From Proteromonas lacertae (taxonomy: Eukaryota > Sar > Bigyra > Opalinata > Proteromonadidae): a stretch of 64,000 bases of DNA. Made by a program: the position numbers and the translations under genes. The stretch lies in NCBI GenBank assembly GCA_002245135.1, contig NGBS01000609.1:1-64000 (forward strand), in the 5' to 3' direction. Positions 25,653 to 63,010 of the stretch are shown here, one piece after another (position 1 is the stretch's first letter; every line of letters starts with the position of its first letter). The notes under the pieces are model-generated. The model did not search any database, was not told where the DNA came from, and saw nothing but the letters and a program-made list of their open reading frames with translations.

Positions 25653-26074
25653 TACAAGAATATTTTTTCATAGCCCCAATTTATTTTTGCATAACCCTAA
25701 TTTTAATTTCTATTTTTTAAGAATAAAAGAATTAAGGATAATAGAATATACAACCATTAATCAAAAGATTAAAAAATAATAAAATAATAATAATCATTAA
25801 AAGTGGATTAATAATGATATTCTAACCAAAATCCTTTAAACGAATAAAATGAGAAAGTCACAACATAAAATAAATAAGCAACAGAATGTTCCAAGCACTA
25901 ACAGCAATATTAATAAGCAAAGTAAATCAAAAGTTAAAACACATGATAATCACCTTTGATATTAGAAATTTTACTGAAAACTAATATTACATTGATTTAT
26001 GGTTTACTATTGATTAATGGTTTAATTTGCTAAACCCAAACTCTTTAAATTTCTCTTTTACCAATTAAAATAAG
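25653..26074. other. Upstream region of VPS13 up to the duplication edge
   Basis: These AT-rich 422 bases lie between the VPS13 start and the left edge of the inverted duplication. The only open frame is a 36-codon lysine/asparagine-rich one at 25850-25960 (MRKSQHKINKQQN), too short and too low in complexity to call a gene. No RNA or repeat seen. Confidence 0.4.
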
Positions 26075-26324
26075 TACTACACAATTCCAAAGAATAATGA
26101 TAAGATATTATATGTATTATTCTATGAATGGCCAAAACACAGTGATAGTAAATTGACATTAACCATTCCCAAAGCAACAGATAATACTAAGATTAGTTTA
26201 TTGGGAGATAAAAAAGGATATAAATTTACAATTGAAAATAGTGAAAGCGGTATGATAATTCATTTCCCAATATTTGAATTTGATGATATTCCTGATACCT
26301 TTGCTTATGTGTTGAAATTATAAA
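26075..26324 (+). pseudogene. 3' fragment of the GH29 fucosidase gene
   Basis: From about 26075 the sequence matches the last 250 coding bases of the intact fucosidase gene at 45566-47466 almost base for base (it would read LYVLFYEWPKHSDSK), but in the opposite orientation. A single base change turns a late GAA codon into TAA. Everything upstream of the fragment is unrelated to the fucosidase. It is therefore a dead fragment carried along with the left arm of the inverted duplication and marks where the arm begins. Confidence 0.9.
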
Positions 26325-29300
26325 ATGTGAATTAATTTTCTAATAATAATGAGTATTTCTTTCTATTTTTTATGTTTTATATCAAAAGCTTGATAAGGTT
26401 TGTGTTTATTGAAACAGCTATTTTTTTTGAAAAGCTTTACTCACATTCATTTTGATATTTGAAGAGACAAATTATCTATAGTTATGCAGTCAGAATCTAC
26501 CTTAGATCAGAGTGTGATAAACGAAATAAAACTAACTGAAGTTGATGTTATAAATGGCAAAGCTTTCTCTTATTGTAAGGATCCTTTTATTTTAGTCCGA
26601 GATTGCTTCCTTCGGATTTACTGTGAGATGAAGAGTGTTATAAGCAACAGTAGAGAATCTAAATATCAAAAATGTTTTTTAGTGTATGGCAATGAAGGAA
26701 TGGGTAAAACAATGTTAAGCTGTTTTCTTGCTCACTGTTTCAGCAAAGATAAATATTTCGAGGGATATAATATTGTTTTTTACTGTTATACACGAGAAAG
26801 AAGTAAAAAATACTGTTATTATTATCGAGAAGCTTATGGTGTTGGATATGAAGAAATAAAAGATCTACCCTATACAAAGAGAAAAACAATAGTGATTAGT
26901 GATAATTATCCAATTAAAGAAGATGATTACAGTAATGCTGAGATAGTGATTATGGTATCTTCACCAAGTGCAGATAAATACAAAGTTATGAGTAATAAAA
27001 GAGCTCCAGTACAATTCTATTTACTACCTCTCACATCAGAAGAAATCAACTTCTGTAAAAGAATAGAATATAGGTTGTCTGAAATAGAATATATATATGA
27101 AAATGAATTTGATCCAGAAAGAGATGGTTTACCATCATATATACCAGCATCATACAATGAAATGTATTATATATATGACACTGATAGAATCGATGTAATT
27201 CCAGAAAGAATAAAGTTTAAATCAGATGAAATAGAAAGAAAAATTTTAACAACATACTTCAATGAACCAAAAAGATTTAAATATTTATATCATGCATTTA
27301 AGGATCAAAGAAATGGAATGATATTTGAAAGAATGTGCCATATTATTATAAAAGATAGGTTGCTTGATAATCAGAATATTCTATATATAGGAGGTAATAT
27401 GTGTTATCATGATAATATGAAAGATTTTGTTGATAAATATCTTCACTCAGATGAAAAGATATACGGAAATAGTGATATTTCTAATACCATTATATGTTGA
27501 TTTTAGTGAAAATCAAGAATTTCCAGCAATTGATGGCTGTATAATTAATATATTCAATATTACATCTGTTCAAATGACAATTAAAGATGATCATCCCACA
27601 GAAGATACAATAATTGTATTTCTGAATGTATATTAATATATTATTATACTTGATTAGATGATATACAGTTACTATAAAGATGTGATGATAGGCTACATAT
27701 TAAATACTCCTACTAATCCATTTCCAGAAGGTATTTCACAAGCATCTTCACTTTATGATCTTGGTTATATACCAAGTAGTTTAAAGAAATATATAATATT
27801 CAAAATGGATCAACGTAAAAGAATTCTATGTGAAAGTTATGTATATTCTATTATTTCTTATATTATTTCTAGTTCTTAATCAATGAAATTAACTGCAGAA
27901 GATATATCGACTCTGATTTGATGAATATGTATAGTGCTGATAGACAGGCAGAATTCAAAGATGTTATGGATAGTGATAAGACAAAATTTGAAGAATTAGG
28001 TGATTGAATTATCAGCCTAAATGTATAATGAATATATTGAAATGCTATTCAAAGAAAATGAAATTTAAGTATATAGATAAACTTAAAGTTTTAATAAAAG
28101 AACAATTAGAAGCAATCAAACAACAATTAAAAGAAGAATATGATAGATATACTACACAATTGTTAAGTATTTCAGAACCAATTGAAATATTTAAAATGAA
28201 AGTCAGATTAGCCATATTTAACAATATCATAAATATAATTGATAGACAATTAGAAGAATCAGTAAATGATGAAGTATTTAGCACCCAAATGAATGATTTA
28301 AAGAATGCAAATAAATGATTATAAAGCAAAAATAGTAGAACAAATAGATGTAGTAGATGAGTCATTCGAAAGTCGATGGAGCGAATTACTAAACAAAGCC
28401 AGACGAATTGAATGAAAGAGTAAAGGAATTACATAACGAAATTGAAATGATAAAAGAGCAACTACAAGAATTGCTTGACAGATTGAATTATTTCCTTAAC
28501 CAGTTGAAAACAAATGAACCAGTTTTAGAATTAATTGATTTAGTTTCATCATTACAAAAGAATTTATCTGATATATCAAACAGAATAACCACATTATATG
28601 GTGGAATAACCGAATCACAAAATGATCCAGAAAAGTTAAATAAAATATGTGATAGTATTCAAGTATTGAAGAGTCACCTTTATATGATACATAAGCTGTT
28701 CCAATCATATTTACAGTTTAACTTGGACAATGATCTTGAAACATGTTTATCATATTTGAGACTTTTCCTTAAATATTTTAAAGCAGATATGGACATAGAA
28801 GATAATGATGATGATAAATCATCTATACCACCTTCATCAACTACTGAAGTTAATGGAGAATCAATAAGTGATAATGACAAGGAAATATCTACTGAAGAAT
28901 TAACCAATTTACATAATAAACTTCTTTCATTACAATATCAACTCCAATTGTTAGGTATATGCGATCTTGAAGTAGGAAATGAATTAGTGAAGAATAAAAT
29001 GAATTCTGAAATAGGAGAATATAGTGAAGATTACAAAAAGTTGTTGCATGATTTAGAAGATTATTTAATCGATGAATATTACATTGATTTAGATGATGAA
29101 GAGAGAGAAGATATGAAAAATGAAATTATTACTGTATATTATGTTATTATTATTATTATAGTCAATTGACAATAATAGAAGCTATGATCGTACTGAATTA
29201 AACAGATGTAATCCAATATTTAGAATTATATTTGTTACATATGATCATGATGAAGTTACAACAAAACTTGTAATAGGTGAAGAAGATTTTGGATATTATG

Positions 29301-32300
29301 GCAAAGAATTTAAAAATGAAATGATAAAAGAGATGAATAAGACATATATTTGGAATCTTTCAAAAACAGATGAAGAGAATATAATAGAAAACACAACAAG
29401 GTTAGTAAGACCAAATAAAAATATTCTAAATGAAGACCAAAAAAAAATAATCAGATCTGTAAAATCAAAAAGACTTAGATTTTCTACTTTAAATTTGACT
29501 ACAAAAGAATTATTAAATGTTTATAATCAAGAAACAACTCCTGAAAGATTTACTGCAAATACAACATTTAAATTCAAGCCAAAAGAATATTCCAATTTAC
29601 TTATAAAAGAACCTTCGAAAAAGCCAATTAATCCTGAAAAAGATATTAATGAGTTGGTTAAAGAATTTAACAACAACATTATTATGAATCAAGCTAATAA
29701 AACTGATAGTTTAAAAGTAATTATAGATGAATATAATGATTTTGTAAATGAATTAAATACATCAAATGGTGAATTGAAGTTAAATGAAGATAATAAAAAG
29801 ATAATAAATGGTATTGAAAATTTATGTAGGAGAATAGATGAACTTGTAGTACTGAATGAAACGATAGATGAAGTAATGCATTTGAAAAATTATATTGGAT
29901 TAACTGTTCCTACCAGAAACTATGTGAATAAATTATTATCAGAATTACCTATTGATGAGACTAAGAAGTGGATAGATGATAATTTATCTAATTTAGTCTT
30001 TCCTATTACTAAACAAGCTGAAGATAATTTACTTCATCGCTTATCTATTGTAAATGAAGAGAAAATTAATAAGTTTATACTGACATTACCTTACATTGTT
30101 ATTAAAGAAGGAATAGGTAAATTACTATGTGAATTACTATATGCTGTAAGTAAAAATTACATAGAAAAATTTTCATTTGAATTGCCTGTTAATGCTACTC
30201 AAAATGTAGTTGTTAAGTTATTAGCTGAATTACGTATTACAATTGATGAAGATTCTATAGATCAGTTTATATCTAAATATCCTGTTCCTAAAGAAGATGA
30301 TATTTATCAATTTTTATTAGCATTACCTGTTGATGGTACTAAAAAGCATATTGATAAGTTATTATCTCAATTACCTATTCCTATTAATGAAGATAATAAA
30401 GAAAAGCTAATATCAATATTATGTGTTGGTAAAGAAGAAGATATTCAGAATTTCATACCTGATTTAATTAAAGATGCTACTAAAGAGTATATTGACAAGT
30501 TAAAACCTGCCTATAATTTAATATCAATAATGAAAGGAAATTTAAAAGATTTTTGTTCTACCTGTACAAGTATATTTATATTAATATAATATTGTAATAA
30601 TAGAAACAAATGAATTATGTCGAATATTTGAAAAACCAGTGATTATAAACTATGATAATACAATAAGCATTGGATGTGATATATTCCAATATCCTGAAAG
30701 GAGAGTGTATATCCGAGATGTTTATAAAGATATATGGAATGAATTGAAATATTATATATTCTTTTTGAAAATACGAGAAGTTAAACGTGAAAGTTTTGAT
30801 GATATTAATGCTATTGTTGAAATAATAAATGAATGTATAAGAGAAGATAATGAAGAGAATAATAAAAGAAATATAAATATTATTAGAGAATATATTATAA
30901 AAGGAAAATGTTTTGAAGAGAAAATAGCTGTTCTAGATGATATGAACAATAAAATATTTAGAGGTAAAATCAGAAAGGAATATAATGGAAAAGAATACAA
31001 AGCAGTTAAATGCTTTAAAATTTTATTAAGAGGAAATCCAGGATGTGGTAAAACCTCCTTTATAATATTCATGCTGAAGAAGATCATTGAGTTAAATGAA
31101 AGAATTAGTGATGATAGATTAAAAATTGATGCTAAAGTATTTAAAAATGGAGGTGATCATGATTTCAATAAATATCGATTAGTAAAAGAAAATGTTCGTG
31201 AAGGTATTAATAATCCAAAACGCTCTGATATAGCTATAACAGATTCATATAACTTAGATACAAGAGATGCAAAAGCTTCAATTATATTATACATTACTGC
31301 TCCAGATTATAAGAATTATAAAAATTTTATAGTAAATAATCGTAATAAATTCTATTATTATATGGATGTATTTAGTAATGATGAAATAAAGGAATGGGAA
31401 GAAAAATGTTTAACAACTAAACTGACATATTCAATATATAAAAATGGATTCAATAGTAAATATGGAAATGTTCCAAGACATATCTATTATGCAGCAATAT
31501 ATGATGTATGTTATGGTAGAGATTATTGGGATGAGTTATACTCAATAGGTATTAAGAGAATAATTGGAGGTATTGGATATATGGAATTTCTAATGAAATA
31601 TCTATTTCCAAGTGAGTCTGCAGAAGATAAAATATCTAATTATAAATCAGAAAGATTTGATATTACATTATGTCATTTGATAGTGAAATATTCTATACCA
31701 TATAAAGATGAAGTGAATAAAATCAAATATTATGATAGAATCAATGAATATGAAATGGAGTTTATATCTGATGAAGTATTTGATTATATTTATGATAACA
31801 TAAAACACAAAGCTGAAAAAGCAGATATTAATGATATTCAAGGGATTTTTAGGAGTATTTATAATAAAAAAGATCATCAATTATTTCAATTACTATTTGA
31901 AGAACTAGTATTTTACAACTGCTTATATAATGGAGAAAAATTAAAATATAAAAATAATACAATAATAGAAACAATTGATAAGAATGAATTTGACACTTTT
32001 AAAGAATTATTCAATGTTGATATATATTCTACTAAAATGAAAGGTGTGTATTTAGTTCATTTAGCAACTGTTGAGAATAGAGAAATGATTTATTTGATGA
32101 ATAACTGTTTTATTCATATTATAAATGATCCAAGCGAAGCCAAAAGAGAATGTAATGAAATAATTGATGAATGTATTATTCAACTGTCAATGAAAATGAA
32201 ATGGTTAAATTTTCATTATATATTTGTTTCTTCAAAAGGCAAAACTTCTAAACAATTAAAAGTAGAGAAAAAGTTTATATCTCATTTAAAGCCAATAATA

Positions 32301-32305
32301 GATCT
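26075..32305 (+). repeat. Left arm of a 6.2 kb inverted duplication
   Basis: This segment matches the reverse complement of 39630-45826 along its length. The match begins inside the fucosidase 3' fragment and ends near the 3' end of the CR gene. Long stretches are essentially identical, introns and upstream sequence included, with short strongly diverged patches near 29.35-29.45, 29.95-30.35 and 31.08-31.30 kb. The two arms are separated by about 7.3 kb that holds the virus-like element. Confidence 0.9.
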
Positions 32306-32465
32306 AACAACTAATGAACCTGGTATAGTGAGTCTTAAACCATCAAATAATGGAACATATTATTGTGTAAATGGAGAGAGGATAAAAGTTATTATATTAT
32401 ATTATCGATCAGAATTTGAGAAAGAAGTGTATGGAAAAGATTTTGGTTTAAAATTACTTTATTAA
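26484..32465 (+). pseudogene. Giant CR-type two-NTPase gene, copy A (frameshifted)
   Basis: Five exons join in phase: 26484-27627, 27658-27840, 27873-29133, 29162-30569 and 30604-32465. The order is P-loop NTPase 1 (Walker A VYGNEGMGKT; Walker B-like IVISD), a restriction-endonuclease-like region (QEFPAIDGCII...SVQMTIKDDHPT), a coiled coil (about 28.05-29.1 kb), a tandem 16-residue repeat (29.9-30.5 kb), P-loop NTPase 2 (LLRGNPGCGKTS) and a C-terminal region. An NTPase followed by this nuclease motif is the layout of Crinkler/RHS (CR) proteins. Relative to copy B, extra bases break the frame near 27489, in 27990-28080, at 28309 and at 28396, so copy A is either decaying or carries consensus errors. 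The C-terminal 50 residues differ from copies B and C. Confidence 0.8.
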
Positions 32466-32746
32466 ACCACTTTTAATGATTATTATATATTATAATGTTT
32501 ATATCTTTTGATTAAGGGTTATATACTTTATTATCAGTATTTCTTTTAATGTTATACATCACAAAAAGAAATTAAAATATAATAATGAGTAATAAAGGGT
32601 TTTTGATTCAAAAAAATAGCCGTTTATGTGTTCTATTTCACCCTATAGTTTTTTCACCCTTAGAAACATAATTAGACAATAAAAAATACATCAATCGATT
32701 CGTAATATTATGCTGGGCTCAAATATGCCCTTAAAAAATCGATACT

Positions 32747-33312
32747 GTTGATCCGCCGTTCAGCTAAATACGCCGTTGAGCGTTAAGAAGACTTTTTTCA
32801 ATTCTAATATCATAAACGTAACCTCTGCCCTTCAATATTACTAATCAACACTTTGTTTTCCAAAATAGTTACGTTGGCCTAATATCGTATAGTAGTGTTT
32901 AGGTTCCTGTACTGGAAACAATTTTTATTTTTATATTATTTTAAAAGCTTATAACAATAGCAGACATCGGGATAAAGGTTTTAAATAGAAAAGGAATACC
33001 TACTTATTGCATTTACCTACTTAAAATTTATTTTGAAAAAACAGGCTTGAATGAAGCTTGAATAGATTTTTTATTTTTTCGTTTTTAAGCGTCCTAACAT
33101 CTAAATATGTGTGATTTAATTGCTTAAACTAATGTATTTTTAACTCCAGTAGTGATTGAAGCAAAAAATTAAAAATATATATCGCAGATGAAGCTTATAT
33201 GACAAAGTAAGATTATATTTGCATATAACTCGCCATTAAACCACACACTATCATTTTAGAATTGAAAAAGTCTTCTTAACGCTCAACTGCGCATTTAGCT
33301 CAACGGAGCAAC
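32747..33312 (+). repeat. MITE-like repeat, left copy
   Basis: 566 bases with terminal inverted repeats of about 50 bases. One end reads GTTGATCCGCCGTTCAGC and then TTGAGCGTTAAGAAGAC, and the other end is the reverse complement of a closely related sequence. It matches the reverse complement of 38043-38655 over nearly its whole length, with a handful of substitutions and a short deletion near 33170. It encodes nothing. The paired, inverted arrangement means the two copies could also act as long subterminal inverted repeats of the larger element. Confidence 0.8.
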
Positions 33313-33463: not shown

Positions 33464-33766
33464 ATGAACAACACCCCCACACAAAAAAAACAATCAAATC
33501 ATTTGAATCAATGGTATTTTGAGTTAACACACAAAATGATTAACATGATTATGAGTCAACGTTTGATATTAGTGTTTGTAGGTCCTTGTGACTTAGGAAA
33601 TAGAGATTATCCGAAAGTTACATACACACCAACAATGAAAAAAGTAATCATCAGAATGCCACAAAGATGTTTTAATGGTAAGATGCCAATATTCTTCAAA
33701 TGTACTCATATGGATACAGAGATGATAGAATATATTGAAACTCATACAATATTTCACCACACATAA
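33464..33766 (+). CDS. Small hypothetical protein inside the virus-like element
   Basis: 100 residues starting at ATG 33464, with mixed composition (SQRLILVFVGPCDLGNRD, then VIIRMPQRCFNGKMP) that looks like a real small globular protein and not low complexity. It is convergent with the protease ORF, the two stops lying about 25 bases apart. No family recognised. It is intronless, as are the other ORFs of the element. Confidence 0.45.
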   Translation: MNNTPTQKKQSNHLNQWYFELTHKMINMIMSQRLILVFVGPCDLGNRDYPKVTYTPTMKKVIIRMPQRCFNGKMPIFFKCTHMDTEMIEYIETHTIFHHT

Positions 33767-33791
33767 AAAAAATAATTAAGAAATAATTATA

Positions 33792-34784
33792 TTATATTAA
33801 ACCAAATTGTTTTTTCATTAACCTAATTTTTGCTTCACCCACTATTGTATTATAGTCAGTAGCCTTTTTGAAACTACACTGATCTCTTAAAATATTTTTC
33901 AAAAAATTAATAGCAAAAAAACCGCAGTTAGCAGTATTTGAATTTTGATTATGTACTCCATTGATTTTAAGTTCATACTTTTCATTATGATACTTCTTTA
34001 ATTTTTTCAAATTTTTTTTAAATTCTTCCAAGCGTTGAGGATCTTCACCAAATGAATCATAGTACAGGAATTGCTTCTTGATATTGTCAACTACTAAGGC
34101 CACCCAATGACCTATAGAATCAGGGCTAGCTTGTGTGGTGAGTGTATTGATTATGATTCCCCATTGATTCTTCTTTTTGGGTATAGGAAGTACAAGCTCG
34201 TCCCAGCAGAACACTCCCATGAACTTTCCGTGGAAATTATTGAACTCATTTTTCACAATTAACTCTATATCAAAGTTCGATAAGGCATCTGAAGTGATAC
34301 TGTTATACAAAACTTTCCTACGTGAAATTAATTTCTTTACTTTTTTATTATTTCCATTACCTATTCCAAAGTAACTCATAGCTTCACTGAGTTGTTTTGC
34401 TTGATCTAAATTACTCACTGCTCTACCAAAATTAGTGAGTGAACTTGGAATTGTTTGTTGTGAACGTCTCACGTAGTTATCCATTTTGATTGCATTCTTG
34501 TGTTGATATGGTGTTGGTTTTAACCAGTTTAATAAACCACCTGCATCTAGCAAACCAAAACAAGCAGTCAATGCACTGAATACTGTTCCTATACCTGCAA
34601 CAGTTTGTAATGTACCTGTTGGATCAGCTGCAACAACAGTTTTTGCCATTGATGGCATAGCTTTTGATAATTCACTAATACCTTTAACTGCTGCTGCAGC
34701 AGTTGTTGCATCACCTCCATTTGCAGCTGCAGCTACAGTTGCTGCTGTTTTTAATGTATCACCTACATTTTTTGCATCTATATT
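33792..34784 (-). CDS. Adenain-like (C5) cysteine protease module
   Basis: The frame is open from just after the TGA at 34785-34787 down to the TAA at 33792; the first ATG is at 34658. The C-terminal 180 residues carry the C5 protease layout: MGVFCWDELVLPIP, a strand ending in IIINT, then SIGHWVALVVD (catalytic His), FLYYDSFGEDP (catalytic acid region), a glutamine before the active site (VHNQNSNTANCGFFAINFL) and the catalytic Cys in NCGF. In adenoviruses, Polinton/Maverick elements and large DNA viruses this enzyme matures capsid precursors. The N-terminal part is alanine-rich, then hydrophobic. It lies in the same frame as the upstream ORF, separated by that single TGA. Confidence 0.85.
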   Translation of the reverse strand, partial: NIDAKNVGDTLKTAATVAAAANGGDATTAAAAVKGISELSKAMPSMAKTVVAADPTGTLQTVAGIGTVFSALTACFGLLDAGGLLNWLKPTPYQHKNAIKMDNYVRRSQQTIPSSLTNFGRAVSNLDQAKQLSEAMSYFGIGNGNNKKVKKLISRRKVLYNSITSDALSNFDIELIVKNEFNNFHGKFMGVFCWDELVLPIPKKKNQWGIIINTLTTQASPDSIGHWVALVVDNIKKQFLYYDSFGEDPQRLEEFKKNLKKLKKYHNEKYELKINGVHNQNSNTANCGFFAINFLKNILRDQCSFKKATDYNTIVGEAKIRLMKKQFGLI

Positions 34785-36506
34785 TCATATATTAGAAAAT
34801 TTGTAGAAGAATGGAACTAATAGAAATAAGTATCGAACATATGGATGAGTATTGAACATAAATGAAACACCAAAGTTATACAACAAGTCTACAGGTAACC
34901 ATGATTTTTGAATTGCTTCAGGTAACATTGACTTAACTTTTTCTGAATTACCATAATACAAGTCAGTGATAGCAGGTAATCTACCACCTGATAGCATACG
35001 AATTATTTCATAGTAGTCGAAAATGAAGTACCACATTACATACAAGAACCCTGATGTTGGTAGCTTGGATTTTTTCCATAACCAATAAGCCAAACATGTC
35101 ATTACTATTGCACGAACATATTTCATTGCATGATCTACTTCAAACATTTGAGGAGTAACTCCACCTACCAAATATGACTTCATTGTATAGTATATTTGTG
35201 GAAATATCCTAAATACATTCTCTACACACAGGAACAAATTACCAGCAAAACCCATAAAATCAGATTCACGTAATGAATCGAGTGCTTTTTGAAATTGTGA
35301 ATTTTCAAATTGTGCCCATGAACTACATGCAGTTTTCACTAAACCAATAGCTATTTCATATTTTTGTTTATTATCTGCATTCACCCACTCTTGAGGAAGT
35401 GAGTGACCTAACTTCTCTCTGTTATAATCAAAGTTAATGAAATCTCTACTATTTTGTGATGCTATTTCATTCAGTTCTCTATATTTATCTTCATTAATCC
35501 ATATATGCGGTTCTTTATCTATATCTATAGCACTATTCACTAGTTCTTGATTTTTTGGATCTAATGCCCATCTATAAAATTTTGATCTTTCTAATATCTC
35601 TTGATCATCCATATATCTTTGTGCCTTTTGATTATTCAATGCAATATATTCTTTTACTTTTTCAGCTCGATTCGGATCAAAATTATATGGATCTGAATAT
35701 TGATTGATCTTACTTACTCCATCAACTAATTCATTTTGCAAATACTCCTGCTGTAGTAATAGTTTGTTATAATATTCTATTGCATCTTTATCATTACCTG
35801 TTAATTTATCCCAAGTTGAGGTCAACCAATCTTGTCTATAATTTTTATACGCTGCTAATTGAGGATTCTTTTCTATTATCTCTTGTAATGATTTATAATT
35901 TTGTAATTTAGGAAATTTTTGTAACAAAGGATCTGTAACTCTATTCATTCCATTATCATATGCCTGAACATCTGCTTCTGTAACATATTCAGGCCAATTC
36001 AAAAGATAGCTTCTTGGATTAGATGTATCTAATTCTGCTAATGGGAATGTTCCTCTTAAATGTCCTTTTTTCTGTTCACGATCTAGCATATCATAAAAAT
36101 TAATATGATAATTGTTAGGCAACATTGAAGCATAATTATTAGTTAATGCATATTGAACTTCTTTTCGAGCTTGTCTATTCAAACCTGGACTAAATAATTT
36201 ATCATAATTCCAATTAAAATCATATCCTACCGTTTCTTTTGGTATATATGGTTGAATATATTCTGGTATTTGACTTGGCTGTAATTGTGATGTTCCATTA
36301 TAAGCAGCACTAGCAGTATCATACATTTGTTGTCTTGGATTAGTAATAATGACATGCTTATTAGGACCAACACTTTGACCCACTCTTAATGGTATAATAC
36401 CACTATTACCACCTAATTCCTTAGTAGCCAAGAGATGCCTCCGTGGGATACTCTCTAATTTTAGTTTATTTCTTCTGTGATGTTTCTTATGCTTGAAATG
36501 AACATG
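34785..36506 (-). CDS. Middle segment of an element polyprotein, membrane-associated
   Basis: The frame is open from just after the TAA at 36507-36509 to the TGA at 34785-34787. It has no ATG near its beginning; the first in-frame ATG is about 60 codons in, which argues that it was or is translated as a continuation of the upstream ORF. It starts with a strongly basic stretch (HFKHKKHHRRNKLK), continues as a soluble, helix-rich region with many tyrosines and tryptophans, and ends with several hydrophobic segments (AIVMTCLAYWLW, GFLYVMWYFIFDYY, YLFLLVPFFYKF). I recognise no capsid signature. Same strand and frame as the protease and the N-terminal ORF. Confidence 0.7.
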   Translation of the reverse strand, partial: HVHFKHKKHHRRNKLKLESIPRRHLLATKELGGNSGIIPLRVGQSVGPNKHVIITNPRQQMYDTASAAYNGTSQLQPSQIPEYIQPYIPKETVGYDFNWNYDKLFSPGLNRQARKEVQYALTNNYASMLPNNYHINFYDMLDREQKKGHLRGTFPLAELDTSNPRSYLLNWPEYVTEADVQAYDNGMNRVTDPLLQKFPKLQNYKSLQEIIEKNPQLAAYKNYRQDWLTSTWDKLTGNDKDAIEYYNKLLLQQEYLQNELVDGVSKINQYSDPYNFDPNRAEKVKEYIALNNQKAQRYMDDQEILERSKFYRWALDPKNQELVNSAIDIDKEPHIWINEDKYRELNEIASQNSRDFINFDYNREKLGHSLPQEWVNADNKQKYEIAIGLVKTACSSWAQFENSQFQKALDSLRESDFMGFAGNLFLCVENVFRIFPQIYYTMKSYLVGGVTPQMFEVDHAMKYVRAIVMTCLAYWLWKKSKLPTSGFLYVMWYFIFDYYEIIRMLSGGRLPAITDLYYGNSEKVKSMLPEAIQKSWLPVDLLYNFGVSFMFNTHPYVRYLFLLVPFFYKFSNI

Positions 36507-37196
36507 TTATCTTCTACCTGAACCTGTCTTTGGATATCCATCTAAAGACATGCCAAATAAACCATAATTTACTTTAGGCCATAAAACAAATTGTTTTCCC
36601 ATACCATTAATTAAATTACACACATCTGATCGTGCTTCTGGAGCATTACGACCACATTGATATTTGAAATAATGTAAATAATCTACTAATTGATCTATTG
36701 TTCCTCCATAGTTTGAAAACTTTGATATAATATCTAATGGCAATCCTACATTTTTACATACATTTTCTAAATCTTGTTTTGTATTATTCATAACCATTTG
36801 CTTAACTGATTCATAATCATATTGATTAATCAAAAATGGTTGTAATTTTTCCATAATAGCATCAACATTATATCTTTGTTGTTGTTGTTGTTGTAATGGT
36901 TGTGTGATATTTTGGAATGTTGGCTGGGCTGTTGCCTCCGTGGAGGCAGCAACACCTGCCATCATTCCGGCGTAATTTGCAGCATTTGAACTTTGATTAT
37001 TATAACCTGCACCAGTTGCAGGTATTGAAGTTGTAACATTAGAACTGGCCCCAGTTGTAGTACTATTAGTTGTATTATTATAACTGGTGCCAGTTGTAAC
37101 ATTCGATACTTGAATATTTGAAGTGGCCGGCGCACTCGTCGAATTTGTTGTTGTAGGAGTAGCACCAAATATACCTCTGAACCAAAATTGAAACAT
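36507..37196 (-). CDS. N-terminal segment of the element polyprotein
   Basis: Starts at ATG 37196 (MFQFWFRGIFGATP); the frame is open 11 codons further up but without another ATG. The first 110 residues are threonine/asparagine/serine-rich with a run of glutamines. The remainder is a globular-looking helical region (IMEKLQPFLINQYDYES, then LVDYLHYFKYQCG). It ends at a TAA, and the same frame continues open into the next ORF. No known family. With the two downstream ORFs it forms a frame of roughly 1,135 codons broken by just two stops. Confidence 0.65.
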   Translation of the reverse strand: MFQFWFRGIFGATPTTTNSTSAPATSNIQVSNVTTGTSYNNTTNSTTTGASSNVTTSIPATGAGYNNQSSNAANYAGMMAGVAASTEATAQPTFQNITQPLQQQQQQRYNVDAIMEKLQPFLINQYDYESVKQMVMNNTKQDLENVCKNVGLPLDIISKFSNYGGTIDQLVDYLHYFKYQCGRNAPEARSDVCNLINGMGKQFVLWPKVNYGLFGMSLDGYPKTGSGRR

Positions 37197-37640: not shown

Positions 37641-38713
37641 ATTATTTTGGTGATTTCCAACAATACTGCAATAGCGTTATAAAATGCAGTATTATACATG
37701 ATCCAACTGATTTCAGAAATCAAATTAGATATTTCAAAGATATACTGTTATACCTATTTGATTACAATCCAAATTATAAGTAAAATATTGTATAATATAT
37801 TTTATAATATTAATAAATAGTATGATAGAATGTTAGATTGGATATATATCGATCTAAAAGTGATTGTATATAACCCGAGTGGTTACACAGATCAGAAAGG
37901 AACATATGATGAAATTGAAAAGCAATAAAAAGAAAAAGAAGAAAAAAAGAATCAACAACAAGTAGAGAAGAACAAAACCAAATCACCAGTAAAAAGAAGA
38001 AGAAAGTATGATGATGATCATGATGATGATGAAGATAAAGATGTTGTGCGCTGTTGAGCTAAATGCGCAGTTGAGCGTTAAGAAGACTTTTTCAATTCTA
38101 AAATGATAGTGTGTGGTTTGATGGCGAGTTATATGCAAATATAATCTTACTTTGTCATATAATCTACATCTGCAATATATATTATTTGAACTTTATCCCA
38201 ACATAATGAAAACAATTATAATTTTATTTTTAATTTTTTTACTTCGATCACTACTAGAGTTAAAAAAACATTAGTTTAAGCAATTAAATCACACATATTT
38301 AGATGTTAAGACACTTAAAAACGAAAAAATAAAAATCTATTCAAGCCTCATTCAAGCCTGTTTTTTCAAAATAAATTTTAAGCAGGTAAATGCAATAAGT
38401 AGGTATTCCTTTTCTATTTAAAACCTTTATCCCGATGTCTACTATTGTTATAAGCTTTTAAAATAATATAAAAATAAAAATTGTTTCCAGTACAGGAACC
38501 TAAACACTACTATACGATATTAGGCCAACGTAATTATTTTGGAAAACAAAGTGTTGATTAGTAATATTGAAGGGCCAGAGGTTTCGTTTATGATATTAGA
38601 ATTGAAAAAAGTCTTCTTAACGCTCAACGGCGTATTTAGCTGAACGGCGCACAACAAAAGATAAAGATGGCAGTGATGATGATGCAAGTCCAGTAGTAGA
38701 TCTGATAGAATAG
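37640..38713 (+). pseudogene. Broken host-like gene split by a MITE insertion
   Basis: A readable stretch (QQYCNSVIKCSIIHDPTDF, KDILLYLFDYNPNYK) continues across a 43-base GTAAAA...AATAG intron into DRMLDWIYIDLKVIVYNPSG, then meets an in-frame TAA after IEKQ. A lysine-rich and aspartate-rich tail follows (VEKNKTKSPVKRRRKYDDD). The 613-base MITE at 38043-38655 interrupts that tail, after which the frame resumes as KDKDGSDDDASPVVDLIE and a stop at 38711-38713. It is spliced and compositionally host-like, so it looks like a cellular gene fragment caught inside or beside the element. Identity unknown. Confidence 0.5.
38043..38655 (-). repeat. MITE-like repeat, right copy, with flanking direct repeat
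   Basis: 613 bases whose ends are GTTGTGCGCTGTTGAGC and, inverted, GTTGTGCGCCGTTCAGC; the terminal inverted repeats extend about 50 bases. AAGATAAAGAT lies directly before it (38032-38042) and again two bases after it (38658-38668), consistent with a target-site duplication of about 11 bases, though the host sequence is itself repetitive here. It is the reverse complement of the left copy at 32747-33312 with roughly 50 extra bases inside. Confidence 0.8.
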
Positions 38714-38821
38714 GACTGCTAATTAAGTCCTTAAAATTTATTTTTATAAAAATTCTCATATAAAATTATTTATATGCGTAGCTAATTATACGCAAAATTT
38801 TTATTGTCTAATAAAAATAAC

Positions 38822-38856
38822 TAAAGGGTTATAGCACACTGTGCTATAACCCTTTA
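38822..38856. repeat. Perfect 17-base-arm hairpin at the element end
   Basis: TAAAGGGTTATAGCACA at 38822-38838 and its exact reverse complement at 38840-38856 flank a single base. The right arm overlaps the right terminal inverted repeat of the virus-like element, so the hairpin is part of or next to the element terminus. The left element end has only the outer half of this sequence, not the full hairpin. Confidence 0.8.
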
Positions 38857-38870
38857 TTACTCATTATTAT

Positions 38871-39007
38871 TTGTTATACAAAGATTTACCAGGTGATGAC
38901 ATTCTTGACAATGGAGCGCTTGGACTTCGATTCTTTAAAACTATTTTTGGAGAAGTAGAAGAGATAGAACTTAATTGATTTACAGAATACACTTTAGATT
39001 GGTTCAT
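38871..39007 (-). pseudogene. 5' fragment of the giant coiled-coil gene
   Basis: It reads as the first 45 residues of the coiled-coil gene at 59358 (starts MNQSKVYSVNQLSS) with one residue changed, then stops dead at 38871, where the virus-like element begins. Its upstream flank (39008-39441) is also an almost exact copy of 59359-59864. The fragment is the edge of a direct duplication of the segment starting at 59222. Confidence 0.9.
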
Positions 39008-39441
39008 TCTATTATTTTATAGAAAATTTATTTTGTTTATACCTCAAGATGTTTATTTACTTTCTCTAATTACAAATATAAAATGATTAAAATTTAAAAA
39101 TGGCTTGATTGATTCAAATCTTTCAAAAATGATTTTGTTGATTTTTTCATAGAATATATAGTAAATTCAGCAATACCATCGATTTTCGAAGTATTTCATT
39201 TGAATTATATGAATAGACGAAATAACTAATAGAAAAGTATAAGTGAAGTCTCTTTAGTTGTAGAAGATGAATGTGATATTGAAATGATAAAGATCATATG
39301 TAAATGTGATAAAAAGAAATAAGAGTTTTAAATGCGTAGAGAATCCCTCATTTATGTTAGATTGTTATAACTCGAATATGAGTTGATTTAGAAAATATAA
39401 TCTTTATCAAGTAATGATATTTGAAAGATAACTTATTTTTG
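39008..39441. repeat. Direct copy of the 59359-59864 spacer
   Basis: This non-coding stretch between the coiled-coil gene fragment and the 3' end of CR copy B is nearly identical to the spacer between the intact coiled-coil gene and CR copy C. Only a few substitutions distinguish them. It carries no gene. The homology continues leftward into the coiled-coil 5' fragment and rightward into the CR gene. Confidence 0.85.
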
Positions 39442-42400
39442 TTAGATTGTTGTTTTTTTTTCAGATGGTGGCTGTTTAACATCATTTGGTGAAGATGGTA
39501 GTTGTATATTTTTTAGAATAAAATCCTTTCCATACACTTCTTGCTCGAATTCTGATAAATAATACTTTAAATCAATTTTATCTTCTGATATTTCTATATT
39601 CTGTTTAACTGGTTTATAAGTTATTGGATCTAGTATTGGCTTTAAATGAGATATAAACTTTTTCTCTACTTTTAATTGTTTAGAAGTTTTGCCTTTTGAT
39701 GAAACAAATATATAATGAAAATCTAACCATTTCATTTTCATTGACAGTTGAATAATACATTCATCAATTATTTCATTACATTCTCTTTTGGCTTCGCTTG
39801 GATCATTTATAATATGAATAAAACAGTTATTCATCAAATAAATCATTTCTCTATTCTCAACAGTTGCTAAATGAACTAAATACACACCTTTCATTTTAGT
39901 AGAATATATATCAACATTGAATAATTCTTTAAAAGTGTCAAATTCATTCTTATCAATTGTTTCTATTATTGTATTATTTTTATATTTTAATTTTTCTCCA
40001 TTATATAAGCAGTTGTAAAATACTAGTTCTTCAAATAGTAATTGAAATAATTGATGATCTTTTTTATTATAAATACTCCTAAAAATCCCTTGAATATCAT
40101 TAATATCTGCTTTTTCAGCTTTGTGTTTTATGTTATCATAAATATAATCAAATACTTCATCAGATATAAACTCCATTTCATATTCATTGATTCTATCATA
40201 ATATTTGATTTTATTCACTTCATCTTTATATGGTATAGAATATTTCACTATCAAATGACATAATGTAATATCAAATCTTTCTGATTTATAATTAGATATT
40301 TTATCTTCTGCAGACTCACTTGGAAATAGATATTTCATTAGAAATTCCATATATCCAATACCTCCAATTATTCTCTTAATACCTATTGAGTATAACTCAT
40401 CCCAATAATCTCTGCCATAACTTACATCATATATTGCTGCATAATAGATATGTCTTGGAACATTTCCATATTTACTATTGAATCCATTTTTATATATTGA
40501 ATATGTCAGTTTAGTTGTTAAACATTTTTCTTCCCATTCCTTTATTTCATCATTACTAAATACATCCATATAATAATAGAATTTATTACGATTATTTACT
40601 ATAAAATTTTTATAATTCTTATAATCTGGTGAAGTAATGTATAATAATAGTAAAGAATTTGCTTGTCTTTCAGAAAGGTTATGTGAATCTGATATAGCTA
40701 TATCAGAGATATTTGGATTGTTAATACCTCTATGGATTTTTTCTCCAATTAATCGATATTTATTGAAATCATTATTACCTCCATTTTTAAATACATATAC
40801 TTCAATTTTCAATTTATTATCATTAATTTTTTTATTTAATTCAATGATCATCTTCAACAAGAATATTATAAAAGAGGTTTTACCACATCCTGGATTTCCT
40901 CTTAACAGAATTTTAAAAAACGTAACTTCATCGAAGTTTTTTCCATTATCTTCCTTTCTGATTTTACCTCTAAATATTTTATTGTTCATATCATCTAGAA
41001 CAGCTATTTTCTCTTCAAAACATTTTCCTTTTATAATATATTCTCTAATAATATTTATATTTCTTTTATTATTCTCTTCATTATCTTCTCTTATACATTC
41101 ATTTATTATTTCAACAATAGCATTAATATCATCAAAACTTTCACGTTTAACTTCTCGTATTTTCAAAAAGAATATATAATATTTCAATTCATTCCATATA
41201 TCTTTATAAACATCTCGGATATACACTCTCCTTTCAGGATATTGGAATATATCACATCCAATGCTTATTGTATTATCATAGTTTATAATCACTGGTTTTT
41301 CAAATATTCGACATAATTCATTTGTTTCTATTATTACAATATTATATTAATATAAATATACTTGTACAGGTAGAACAAAAATCTTTTAAATTTCCTTTCA
41401 TTATTGATATTGAATTATAGGCATGTTTTAACTTGTCAATATACTCTTTAGCAGCATCTTTAATTAAATCAGGTATGAAATTCTGAATATCTTCTTCTTT
41501 ACCAACACATAATATCGATATTAGCTTTTCTTTATTATCTTCATTAATTGGGATAGGTAATTGAGATAATAACTTATCAATATCCTCTTTAGGAGTATTA
41601 CTAGGATTAGGTATTTTTGACAAAAATTGATGAATATCATCTTTATTAGGAACAGGTAATGCTGATATTAACTGATCTATAGAATTTTCACTTATAGTGA
41701 TTTTCAATTCAGCTAATATCTTTTTAATATCTTCTTTTGTAACATCAACAGGCAATTCAGATAAAAACTGTTCTATGTAATTTTTACTTACAGCATATAG
41801 TAATTCACATAGTAATTTACCTATTACTTCTTTATTAACAATGTAAGGTAATGTTAATGTATATTGATTAACAACAGAAGACATGTAATTAAGTAACCTA
41901 TTTTTGTTATCTTCATTTATAGGAAAGACTAAATTGGATAAATTATCATCTATCCACTTCTTAATTTTATCAATAGGTAATTCTGATAATAATTTATCCA
42001 CATAGTTTCTTGTAGGAACAGTTAATCCAATATAATTTTTCAAATGTTTTACTTCTTCTTTATCTTTATTCAGTACTACAATTTCATCTATTCTCCTACA
42101 TAAATTTTCAATACCATTTATTATCTTTTATTATCTTCATTTAACTCCAATTCACCATTTGATGTATTTAATTCATTTACAAAATCATTATATTCATCTA
42201 TAATTACTTTTAAACTATCAGTTTTATTAGCTTGATTCATAATAATAGCATTGTTAAATTCTTTAACCAACTCATTAATATCTTTTTCAGGATTAATTGG
42301 CTTTTTCGAAGGTTCTTTTATAAGTAAATTGGAATATTCTTTTGGCTTGAATTTAAATGTTGTATTTGCAGTAAATCTTTCAGGAGTTGTTTCTTGATTA

Positions 42401-45400
42401 TAAACATTTAATAATTCTTTTGTAGTCAAATTTAAAGTAGAAAATCTAAGTCTTTTTGATTTTATAGATTTGATTATATTCTTTTGGTTTTTATCTAAAG
42501 AACATTTTCCTGATTTTGTTATTTCTGTTCTTGGCCTTTTTGCAGGATTTACAAAATCCCAAATATATGTCTTATTCATCTCTTTTATCATTTCATTTTT
42601 AAATTCTTTGCCATAATATCCAAAATCTTCTTCACCTATTACAAGTTTTGTTGTAACTTCATCATGATCATATGTAACAAATATAATTCTAAATATTGGA
42701 TTACATCTGTTTAATTCAGTACGATCATAGCTTCTATTATTGTCAATTGACTATAATAATAATAATAACATAATATACAGTAATAATTTCATTTTTCATA
42801 TCTTCTCTCTCTTCATGATCTAAATCAATGTAATATTCATCGATTAAATAATCATCTAAATCATGCAACAACTTTTTGTAATCTTCACTATATTCTCCTA
42901 TTTCAGAATTCATTTTATTCTTCACTAATTCATTTCCTACTTCAAGATCGCATATACCTAACAATTGGAGTTGATATTGTAATGAAAGAAGTTTATTATG
43001 TAAATTGGTTAATTCTTCAGTAGATATTTCCTTGTCATTATCACTTATTGATTCTCCATTAACTTCAGTAGTGGATGAAGGTGGTATAGATGATTTATCA
43101 TCATCATTATCTTCTATGTCCATATCTGCTTTAAAATATTTAAGGAAAAGTCTCAAATATGATAAACATGTTTCAAGATCATTGTCCAAGTTAAACTGTA
43201 AATATGATTGGAACAGCTTATGTATCATATAAAGGTGACTCTTCAATACTTGAATACTATCACATATTTTATTTAACTTTTCTGGATCATTTTGTGATTC
43301 GGTTATTCCACCATATAATGTGGTTATTCTGTTTGATATATCAGATAAATTCTTTTGTAATGATGAAACTAAATCAATTAATTCTAAAACTGGTTCATTT
43401 GTTTTCAACTGGTTAAGGAAATAATTCAATCTGTCAAGCAATTCTTGTAGTTGCTCTTTTATCATTTCAATTTCGTTATGTAATTCCTTTACTCTTTCAT
43501 TCAATTCGTCTGGTTTGTTTAGTAATTCGCTCCATCGACTTTCGAATGACTCATCTACTACATCTATTTGTTCTACTGTTTTTGCTTTATAATCATTTAT
43601 TTCATTCTTTAAATCATTCATTTGGGTGCTAAATACTTCATCATTTACTGATTCTTCTAATTGTCTATCAATTATATTTATGATATTGTTAAATATGGCT
43701 AATCTGACTTTCATTTTAAATATTTCAATTGGTTCTAAAATACTTAACAATTGTGTAGTATATCTATCATATTCTTCTTTTAATTGTTGTTTGATTGCTT
43801 CTAATTGTTCTTTTATTAAAACTTTAAGTTTATCTATATTTAAATTTTCATTATTTTGAATAGATTTCAATATATTCTTAACTTTAGGCTGTAATTCAAT
43901 CACCAATTCTTCAAATTTTGTCTTATCACTATCCATAACATCTTTGAATTCTGCCTGTCTATCAGCACTATACATATTCATCAAATCAGAGTCGATATAT
44001 CTTCTGCAGTTAATTTCATTGATTAAGAACTAGAAATAATATAAGAAATAATAGAATATACATAACTTTCACATAGAATTCTTTTACGTTGATCCATTTT
44101 GAATATTATATATTTCTTTAAACTACTTGGTATATAACCAAGATCATAAAGTGAAGATGCTTGTGAAATACCTTCTGGAAATGGATTAGTAGGAGTATTT
44201 AATATGTAACCTATCATCTTATCTTTATGGTAACTGTATATCATCTAATCAAGTATAATAATATATTAATATACATTCAGAAATACAATTATTGTATCTT
44301 CTGTGGGATGATCATCTTTAATTGTCATTTGAACAGATGTAATATTGAATATATTAATTATACAGCTATCAATTGCTGGAAATTCTTGATTTTCACTAAA
44401 ATCAACATATATGGTATTAGAAATATCACTATTTCCGTATATCTTTTCATCTGAGTGAAGATATTTATCAACAAAATCTTTCATATTATCATGATAACAC
44501 ATATTACCACCTATATATAGAATATTCTGATTATCAAGCAACCTATCTTTTATAATAATATGGCACATTCTTTCAAATATCATTCCATTTCTTTGATCCT
44601 TAAATGCATGATATAAATATTTAAATCTTTTTGGTTCATTGAAGTATGTTGTTAAAATTTTTCTTTCTATTTCATCTGATTTAAACTTTATTCTTTCTGG
44701 AATTACATCGATTCTATCAGTGTCATATATATAATACATTTCATTGTATGATGCTGGTATATATGATGGTAAACCATCTCTTTCTGGATCAAATTCATTT
44801 TCATATATATATTCTATTTCAGACAATTCACACTCTATACTGTTACAAAAGTTGATTTCTTCTGATGTGAGAGGTAGTAAATAGAATTGTACTGGAGCTC
44901 TTTTATTACTCATAACTTTGTATTTATCTGCACTTGGTGAAGATACCATAATCACTATCTCAGCATTACTGTAATCATCTTCTTTAATTGGATAATTATC
45001 ACTAATCACTATTGTTTTTCTTTTTGTATAAGGTAGATCTTTTATTTCTTCATATCCAACACCATAAGCTTCTCGATAATAATAACAGTATTTTTTACTT
45101 CTTTCTCGTGTATAACAGTAAAGAACAATATTATATCCCTCGAAATATTTATCTTTGCTGAAACAGTGAGCAAGAAAACAGCTTAACATTGTTTTACCCA
45201 TTCCTTCATTGCCATACACTAAAAAACATTTTTGATATCTAAATTCTCTACTGTTGCTTATAACACTCTTCATCTCACAGTAAATCTGAAGGAAGCAATC
45301 TCGGACTAAAATAAAAGGTTTTCTACAATAAGAGAAAGCTTTGCCATTTATAACATCAACTTCAGTTAGTTTTATTTCGTTTATCACACTCTGATCTAAG

Positions 45401-45417
45401 GTAGATTCTGACTGCAT
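39442..45417 (-). CDS. Giant CR-type two-NTPase gene, copy B
   Basis: The best preserved copy, with introns at 44245-44274, 44030-44061, 42751-42778 and 41328-41361, all AT-rich, 28-34 bases, GT...TAG. Joined, it encodes roughly 1,900 residues: NTPase 1 (VYGNEGMGKT; IVISDN; MVSSPSADKYK sensor-like strand), an REase-like motif (EFPAIDSCII followed by VQMTIKDDHPT), a long coiled coil with acidic linker, 16-residue repeats (IDKLLSQLPIPINED type), NTPase 2 (RGNPGCGKTS; IAISDS) and a conserved C-terminal domain. CR proteins of oomycetes, chytrids and trypanosomes share the NTPase-nuclease core. A single missing A in a run at 42126-42129 breaks the frame in the repeat part, so either this copy is also damaged or one base was lost in sequencing. 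Confidence 0.8.
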
Positions 45418-45826
45418 AACTATAGATAATTTGTCTCTTCAAATATCAAAATGAATGTGAGTAAAGCTTTTCAAAAAAAATAGCTGTTTCAATAAACACA
45501 AACCTTATCAAGCTTTTGATATAAAACATAAAAAATAGAAAGAAATACTCATTATTATTAGAAAATTAATTCACATTTTCTAATTTCAACACATAAGCAA
45601 AGGTATCAGGAATATCATCAAATTCAAATATTGGGAAATGAATTATCAAACCACTTTCACTATTTTCAAATGTAAATTTATATCCTTTTTTATCTCCCAA
45701 TAAACTAATCTTAGTATTATCTGTTGCTTTGGGAATGGTTAATGTCAATTTACTATCACTGTGTTTTGGCCATTCATAGAATAATACATATAATATCTTA
45801 TCATTATTCTTTGGAACTGTGTAAGC
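39630..45826 (-). repeat. Right arm of the 6.2 kb inverted duplication
   Basis: Reverse complement of 26075-32305. The right arm passes intact into the full fucosidase gene, while the left arm stops within it. On its inner side the right arm passes into a second duplication shared with 59222-60000. The right arm therefore keeps the natural neighbours on both sides and is the better candidate for the parental copy. Confidence 0.9.
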
Positions 45827-47466
45827 TATATTTTTATTTTTAGCATTATCAAATGGAACTTTATATGGTTTTGTTTTATAAATAGCTTCACCATTTATTT
45901 TCATAAATCTTCCAATATCTCTTAATCTTTCTTCATATTCTGGAGTTATTATTCCATCAGCTGTTGGACCAACATTTATTAACATATTACCACCTGTTGC
46001 TATCACTGTTATTAAGTCTCTTATTAACTCTTTTGAGGAATAAAAATCACTTAATCTTTTAGTTTTATCATAACACCAACAATCTTTTGTCATTGTAAAA
46101 CAACATTCATATTTCTCATCCAGTGTTGCATCAGGAATAAATCGATCACTTCCTGTTAAATAATCACCACTACCATCATATCCCCATCTTGAATTAGTTA
46201 CTACTGTATTCTTAACTGGACTTGATGAGTATAACCAACTTAAGAATTTTTCATTTTGATAATATAATTCTCGTTTATCCATTTCATCAGAACCATCTGA
46301 CCATATTAAATCAGGTTTATAATCATTAGTTATTTGAATCAAAGAGGGATGCAATACTTGTTCTGTATATTTCGTTGTTTTATCTTTCTTATCTTTTTCC
46401 CATAAGGCATTTCCCCATTCTTTTATACTGTGATATAAACCCATTTTCATTCCTGTTGCTTTTACTGCTTTGGTTAATTCACCTGTTAAATCTCTATGTG
46501 ATCCTCTTTCTACTGAATTATATAAGTAATGTTGTGGAGATGGATAATTACAGAATCCATCATGATGCTTTGTTGTTAATACTACATATTGAGCACCAAC
46601 ATCTTTAAACAATTCAGCCCATTCACTTGCATTGAATAATTGAGCTTGAAACATATCAGCAAATTGATCATAAGTGAATTTCTTACCATTACATGGATAT
46701 TTATCTTCAGCTATTCCACTACATCCATACATCTTGTTATGATATTGAACATAAGCTGCTTGACCATTATGAAGATATTTATAATACCATTCGCTTTTGA
46801 AAGCTGGAACACTGAATAAAGTCCAATGAATGAATATACCAAATTTGGCATCATCAAACCATTTTGGAGATGGTCTTGCAGCTAATGCAGCTGGCTTTTC
46901 TGGATATGGAGGTAAAGGACATGCTTTATCTTCATAGGTTGAATTACAAGCATAAGAAGTTGAAACTGTGAAATGATAGTTTATTTTTCTTCTTATTAAT
47001 ACATTGGTGATTTTTGCATCTGAGATTGATTTATCACAAACAAAATCCATTGAAAACATTTTCGTTACGATTGCACCCATCTTTTCACCATCTATATACG
47101 CTACTCTTGCTCCTTTGTCAGGATTTTTAATCTCGCTTGGTAGAATTATCTCGGTTTTGTTAATGCCTAATGACACACATACATCATTCTCTATTTTATA
47201 ACCTGTTGATGCTACAACGCTGTTACACTTTTCAGGAACATCAACAACATTACCTCCAACTAAGAATATAATTCAACAAATATACGTCGCAAAAAATAGT
47301 TAATCCCATCCTTCTCATATTGCATCGATTTCAACTCTGTTAGTCTACATAAATCATATCTGTAACAACCCTTCTCATCATTTGATGGAATTGACAAAAT
47401 ACATGAGTTACAAGTAACAAAAGCAAAAGCTACCACAAAAACAAACAAATAATTGAGTTTATTCAT
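45566..47466 (-). CDS. Secreted alpha-L-fucosidase, glycoside hydrolase family 29
   Basis: Two exons (47466-47286 and 47259-45566) with a 26-base intron give about 625 residues. A signal peptide (YLFVFVVAFAFVTC) leads an unusual N-terminal extension of about 140 residues with paired cysteines, then the GH29 catalytic domain: WFDDAKFGIFIHW, VVLTTKHHDGF, DLIWSDGSD (the aspartate of this motif is the catalytic nucleophile in the family) and TGGNMLINVGPTADG. A C-terminal beta domain ends in ILYVLFYEW. It removes alpha-linked fucose from glycans outside the cell or in a lysosome-like compartment. The 3' end is copied at the edge of the left arm. Confidence 0.93.
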
Positions 47467-62800: not shown

Positions 62801-63010
62801 ATACACTAAAAAACATTTTTGATAATTAAATTCAATTCCATTCTTAATATTACTCTTCATCTCACAATAAATCCGAATGAAGCAATCTCGGACTAGAAGG
62901 AATGGACTATCACAACTAAAGAATGCTTTGTCATTAATAATTTGCTTTTCAAGTTTTATTTTTCCTATTCCATCAAAATCAAAGTCGATAACACTAGTTG
63001 ATATTTCCAT
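59865..63010 (-). CDS. Shortened CR-type gene, copy C
   Basis: Start at ATG 63010 (MEISTSVIDF); the frame reaches 63082 but the extra residues derive from the conserved upstream sequence. One intron (61700-61728) joins the two halves. NTPase 1 has Walker A VYGNRGIGKT and Walker B-like IVISDN. After residue about 270 the sequence jumps (MDAKKEMKRYTANTTF) straight to the part that follows the coiled coil in copies A and B, so the REase-like and coiled-coil domains and nearly all 16-residue repeats are absent. NTPase 2 (LLRGNPGCGKTS) and the C-terminal domain follow. A missing G near 59881 ends the protein early (EVYERILF) compared with copy B. It could be an ancestral short form or a deletion derivative. 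Confidence 0.8.

Follow-up and report, generated by a model that had tools for sequence, protein, structure and literature searches.

A decayed Polinton/Maverick fragment whose relatives probably carry a C5/Ulp1-type protease at the end of a long membrane/core precursor

In the window (by which we mean the whole 64,000-nucleotide stretch of the Proteromonas lacertae genome analysed here) a single minus-strand frame runs from 37196 to 33792 (1,135 residues and stops), is interrupted only by a TAA (36507-36509) and a TGA (34785-34787), and raises the question of whether it represents a polyprotein ending in its own maturation protease and, if so, what the two stops mean. The original prediction described three minus-strand ORFs sharing one frame of about 1,135 codons, the middle one without a nearby ATG, and both points were reproduced (the earliest ATG of the middle piece lies at 36326, roughly 60 codons in). 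The protease piece matched the Pfam families Peptidase_C48 (PF02902, 5.6e-8) and Peptidase_C5 (PF00770, 4.7e-5), both above the curated cut-offs, and the Pfam scan of the first and middle pieces returned zero families above cut-off. In many near-family copies the blastn alignment breaks off at 33507 on one side and at 37184-37185 on the other: the range first given (33792 to 37196) describes the frame correctly and falls short at its low end, the homology covering about 33507-37185. The window copy lacks at least the first 245 residues of the relatives' protein, together with the rest of the element. We consider that the locus is probably (with a rough probability of 0.8) a decayed Polinton/Maverick fragment, in whose relatives a frame of 1,392-1,595 codons ends in a C5/Ulp1-type protease that would mature a membrane/core precursor. 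The features are as follows.

About 33507..37185, minus strand: probable Polinton/Maverick relic, truncated at both ends (blastn ends of near-family relatives)
36510..37185, minus strand: first piece, a linker part rich in T/N/S and Q (without the 245 or more N-terminal residues of the relatives)
36507..36509, minus strand: in-frame TAA, apparent lesion of the window copy (junction open in 34/36 near-full-cover near-family rows)
34788..36506, minus strand: middle piece, with hydrophobic segments near its end (and helices in a low-confidence model only)
34785..34787, minus strand: in-frame TGA, apparent lesion of the window copy (junction open in 42/46 full-cover near-family rows)
33792..34784, minus strand: third piece, a C5/C48-type cysteine protease at the C-terminus (Pfam) preceded by a hydrophobic segment and a basic linker, ending in TAA at 33792-33794
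33795..34289, minus strand: catalytic domain, from DALSNFDI (invariant residues in 7 fused and stand-alone rows)
34107-34109, 34056-34058, 33945-33947 and 33924-33926, minus strand: presumed catalytic His (H226), Asp (D243), Gln (Q280) and Cys (C287)
36408..36413, minus strand: candidate cleavage site 1, conserved Gly-Gly (LGG) preceded by a basic stretch (GG in 6/7 aligned rows)
35160..35165, minus strand: candidate cleavage site 2, conserved Gly-Gly in LxGGVT (GG in 6/7 aligned rows)
33464..33766, plus strand: convergent ORF remnant adjoining the polyprotein, 150-155 codons in near relatives (position, strand, DNA match)

A search of the window's own assembly (50.2 Mb, 1,181 contigs) with the protease piece gave at least 138 matches, and since many of these relatives read the pieces as one frame, the observation goes beyond chance. 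Near relatives are 95.6-98.4% identical to the window in DNA over the main aligned stretches (blastn), in line with the suggestion that the frame had been recently disabled. The same genome was searched for homologous elements carrying the stops, a check named in the original prediction. At the middle/protease junction, a 216-residue query returned at least 146 rows, from which 46 full-cover rows were used and 100 partial ones dropped; among the matches listed, 42 of these 46 near-family rows were open (24 rows being identical to the query), and stops occurred in the window itself, C888, C155 (19112) and C906. At the first junction, a 181-residue query gave 115 rows, of which 36 (starting no later than residue 9 and complete to the last) were used and 79 dropped; 34 of these near-full-cover near-family rows were open, with stops in the window and in C565. 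Where fetched relatives cover the position of the window's TAA or TGA, all of them are free of a stop at that point. As most near-family rows are open across both junctions, we read the two stops from these alignments as lesions of one copy and not as readthrough signals. A number of the dropped partial-cover rows carry stops, so that many copies must be regarded as decayed. The diverged families appear in the junction lists as partial matches only, and their open frame rests on frame inspection of the fetched regions.

Inspection of frames in 20 fetched regions and 8 loci from the genome search revealed continuous frames containing the whole protease in C436 (1,392 codons), C181 (1,544), C953 (1,394), C79 (1,401), C343 (1,399), C1166 (1,423) and C209 (1,595), as well as in C1060 (1,243 codons, its start lying in another frame). 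The first 92 codons of C436 hold zero ATG, for which reason its start has probably been lost, and C1077 is open for 1,364 codons, but its frame stops inside the protease. Identity to the window amounts to 78% (protease piece) and 65% (middle part) in C1077, and to 47-54% and 31-37%, respectively, in C79, C343, C1166, C209 and C1060. Broken copies have a stop inside the protease piece (C888, C824 and C188) or in the protease (C1091), or are split in the middle part (C293) or upstream (C139). About 125 residues spanning the middle/protease junction are missing in frame from both C701 and C202 (L013 and L014), a shared deletion that leaves a long frame open.

C-terminal fusions were also found in proteins from other sources, namely P0001 (1,354 aa, 43%) and P0002 (952 aa, resembling the other fused proteins in the protease only); the homologue searches beyond this genome found these two alone, and none in viral contigs. 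In total, three dissimilar precursors carry a fused protease. The third type occurs in C676, C107, C901 and C1043, all four fetched copies having some break, and in C676 and C107 its precursor shares one frame with most or part of the protease. Other lineages of the same genome have stand-alone proteases of about 190-204 codons: the C674 type is present in at least 12 rows (residues 1 or 3 to 190, 97-100% identical, all open), and a 194-codon frame in at least 27 rows among the matches listed, 3 with an internal stop. In C674 the stand-alone gene is opposite in direction to its structural neighbours. Separate ATG-initiated genes, named at the outset as evidence that would speak against a fusion, are thus present only in other, separate lineages and not among the relatives of the window element. 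A single branch (support 99/98) separates 14 fused from 5 stand-alone rows in an unrooted tree of 19 protease domains (16 different), with one change of label needed; the tree program issued a long-branch warning, and the stand-alone sample comprised C674/C774 and three types of one row each, with L045 classed by frame length. Being unrooted and subject to the long-branch warning, the tree is compatible with fusion as well as with fission. As a separate observation, five similar 228-codon frames (C346, C343 (21411), C807 (30953), C164 and C734; 96-97% identity) hold only protease residues 84-288 and may have arisen secondarily from the fused gene as a stand-alone form.

All 7 scanned proteases, fused and stand-alone, matched both PF02902 and PF00770 at E <= 0.05, the C5 match alone falling below its cut-off in diverged copies. 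H226, D243, Q280 and C287 (numbering of the window piece) are invariant in 7 fused and stand-alone rows, and we take their catalytic roles to be those of the homologous residues in C5/C48. The protease profile matched solved C48-type proteases in the PDB (membrane thiol protease 5b5q, 7e-5; SENP1, 7.9e-5), with no adenovirus protease among its 22 matches there. Judged by these sequence comparisons, the domain belongs to C48/C5, the stronger affinity being to C48. AlphaFold models of the protease piece (pLDDT 34.8) and of the middle piece (pLDDT 42), each built on a two-row alignment, were too low for use. The catalytic part gave dN/dS values of 0.04-0.15 in every pair with dN above zero (the C1077 comparison covering 94 codons), and zero replacements in L009-L010 and L018-L019. 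The linker gave 0.90-1.07 in three near-family pairs, about 1.19 against C1077, 0.97 for L009-L018 and 0.49 for L018-L023, and among C79, C343 and C1166 its values were 0 and about 0.5; the middle part ranged from 0.08 to 0.9. In these dN/dS comparisons the more distant pairs are near saturation. Since the ratio in the protease stays at 0.04-0.15 wherever dN exceeds zero, we regard the fusion, on substitution patterns, as an old and selected feature.

The gene neighbourhood points to a Polinton-type element. A family B DNA polymerase (PF03175, 1.1e-6, above cut-off; L019 37-1341) shares its contig with a fused copy. An rve integrase match in a stand-alone lineage (1.7e-6) scored 28.6 bits, below its 32.6 cut-off, and ORFs of 442-457 codons beside fused copies cluster with this rve-like protein, their own Pfam match being 0.21 or absent. 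An ATPase-like gene gave weak FtsK/AAA matches below cut-off, and its profile had only two PDB matches at E <= 1, both to the packaging NTPase B204 (0.03 and 0.17). A conserved ORF of about 470-500 codons near fused copies is the capsid candidate: Pfam and PDB profile searches gave it zero matches above cut-off, and a DUF4106 search, run without positive control, found no match. It adjoins the third-type precursor in 3/4 copies; the 1.1 kb covered downstream in C901 gave no match to it.

Could the pieces nevertheless be joined in some other way? The original prediction had allowed for expression by stop readthrough, and programmed readthrough or recoding, in which both stops are functional and yield nested products, would account for pieces that are exactly in frame and separated by single stops only. 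We consider it highly improbable, as the fetched relatives covering these positions read through without a stop, most near-family rows are open there (42/46 and 34/36), the long frames end in TAA in 9/10 copies examined, and the window copy is truncated at both ends. Equally improbable in our estimation is a coincidence of frame, by which separate genes were joined through stop loss in one expanding family: many near-family copies are indeed recent, as the 24 rows identical to the query indicate, but fused frames also occur in families only 31-54% identical, and the fusion recurs in a dissimilar precursor (C676/C107) and in P0001 and P0002.

A third reading accepts the long frame and holds that the protein remains uncut, its protease serving as a tethered enzyme of deubiquitinase/deSUMOylase-like type that would act on host proteins. 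The matches to C48/Ulp1, SENP1 and chlamydial-type deubiquitinase structures, stronger than those to C5, are what such an enzyme would lead one to expect; the position of the gene beside PolB, integrase-like and ATPase-like genes, and the view of Polinton proteases as maturation enzymes in the available text of PMC3671162 and PMC4028283, argue against it, and we judge it unlikely. We return to the decayed Polinton/Maverick fragment with a precursor-maturing protease as the probable reading.

The six long proteins compared have a common order: a basic N-terminal region (missing in the two near-family rows), a hydrophobic stretch, a low-complexity linker and a basic PRRH stretch followed by Gly-Gly, succeeded by a middle region with the second conserved Gly-Gly (LxGGVT), a hydrophobic segment, a basic linker and the protease. 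With P0002 added to the alignment, 6/7 rows, two of them near-identical, have GG at each of the two sites; P0002 is without GG at both, which counts against a maturation at Gly-Gly. In the four polyproteins tested, [MIL]xGG was no more frequent than in shuffles (p 0.16-0.67), and for this reason cleavage at the Gly-Gly sites is put forward as a hypothesis. The motif [MIL]xGxG, with 6 occurrences against 1.44 expected, was over-represented in small basic neighbours, a signal that we rejected: these proteins are partly homologous, and a control set (PolB, integrase, capsid candidate, ATPase) was likewise in excess (3 seen, 0.75 expected, p 0.04). By profile comparison (mostly of single sequences and thus of low sensitivity) no homology was found among the three fused precursors or between them and proteins of the stand-alone lineages, the best match being a stretch of the main precursor against P0002 (HH probability 7.6%; small neighbours 11.4% at most). 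The proposed polyprotein with its own adenain-like protease holds in so far as one continuous frame of the relatives contains a long precursor and a C-terminal adenain/Ulp1-type protease; its cutting into several proteins is what we infer. A DUF4441 match was noted in the variable region of one copy.

With its basic start, hydrophobic segments, flexible linkers and conserved Gly-Gly, the precursor is probably a particle-internal membrane/core component. The fused protease would be carried into the assembling particle at a fixed stoichiometry and would there mature its own precursor, and probably other core proteins too, at Gly-Gly sites. We hold it to be an evenly balanced proposition that one event attached the maturation protease to the tail end of a rapidly evolving membrane/core precursor in a whole Polinton-type clade and that the arrangement was kept while the precursor diverged beyond recognition, which would amount to a dsDNA-virus polyprotein strategy beside sister lineages of the same genome that have a separate protease.

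The adenovirus endoprotease (C5), of Gly-Gly specificity, is encoded by a separate gene and uses a peptide cofactor derived from a precursor; the element described here has in common with it a related catalytic domain (by Pfam) and candidate Gly-Gly sites. In the protease-scaffold fusions of herpesviruses and phages, to which we liken the element, the protease reaches the procapsid within an inner structural precursor, which such fusions mature; there it is usually N-terminal (C-terminal in the element here), and both protease and virus lineage are unrelated. As in Polinton/Maverick elements (Polintoviricetes), PolB, integrase-like, ATPase-like and C5/Ulp1 protease genes occur together. The excerpts available of PMC3671162, PMC10120064, PMC6431247, PMC11071308, PMC12721341, PMC4028283 and PMC12220804 place the Polinton protease among the core genes, and those of PMC3671162 and PMC4028283 count it as a separate core gene, in contrast to its place here at the C-terminus of a 1,392-1,595-codon frame; the original expectation that a fusion would be unusual for Polintons agrees with this. 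A processing protease within a larger Polinton protein has a precedent in the OTU-type (vOTU) domain inside the Polinton polymerase (PMC11071308, in the part available), which differs in protease superfamily, in carrier (the polymerase) and in proposed target. No C5/Ulp1 protease fused to a structural precursor was found in the available parts of the Polinton literature searched, the founding Polinton/Maverick descriptions lying outside this scope, and novelty is provisional. Adenovirus-like and Polinton-like maturation proteases are treated as separate genes, and a conserved fusion would show delivery and control in cis. Furthermore, one genome offers a natural comparison of fused and unfused proteases, and the fused precursor is a protein likely to be part of the Polinton particle, whose existence is still inferred.

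The relic is surrounded by a giant inverted duplication (26063-33310 / 38047-45838), whose arm stretches are 93-99% complementary, with two at 80 and 87%; the arms carry NACHT/STAND-like P-loop genes (below the Pfam cut-off), and related ORFs were seen by eye at 59865-63010. Two units of about 0.5 kb (32775-33287 and 38070-38628) flank the relic in inverted orientation with a common 18-bp motif at both ends, and no exact match to them was present in the other 33 of the 34 loci compared. A fragment at 38900-39020 (minus strand), apparently interrupted, repeats by eye the beginning of the host ORF located at 59358. A minus-strand ORF with a CxxC-type motif (1321-1905) is, by eye, similar to a 250-codon ORF of a stand-alone lineage (L026 433-1182) and may represent a further Polinton piece where the window begins. 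In another locus (L034 466-2154, minus strand) triosephosphate isomerase is fused in frame to a GAPDH-like part (GAPDH by eye), a hint about the host's lineage that speaks against a parabasalid, and the window itself contains an alpha-L-fucosidase gene (PF01120, 4e-104) at 45566-47080 on the minus strand.
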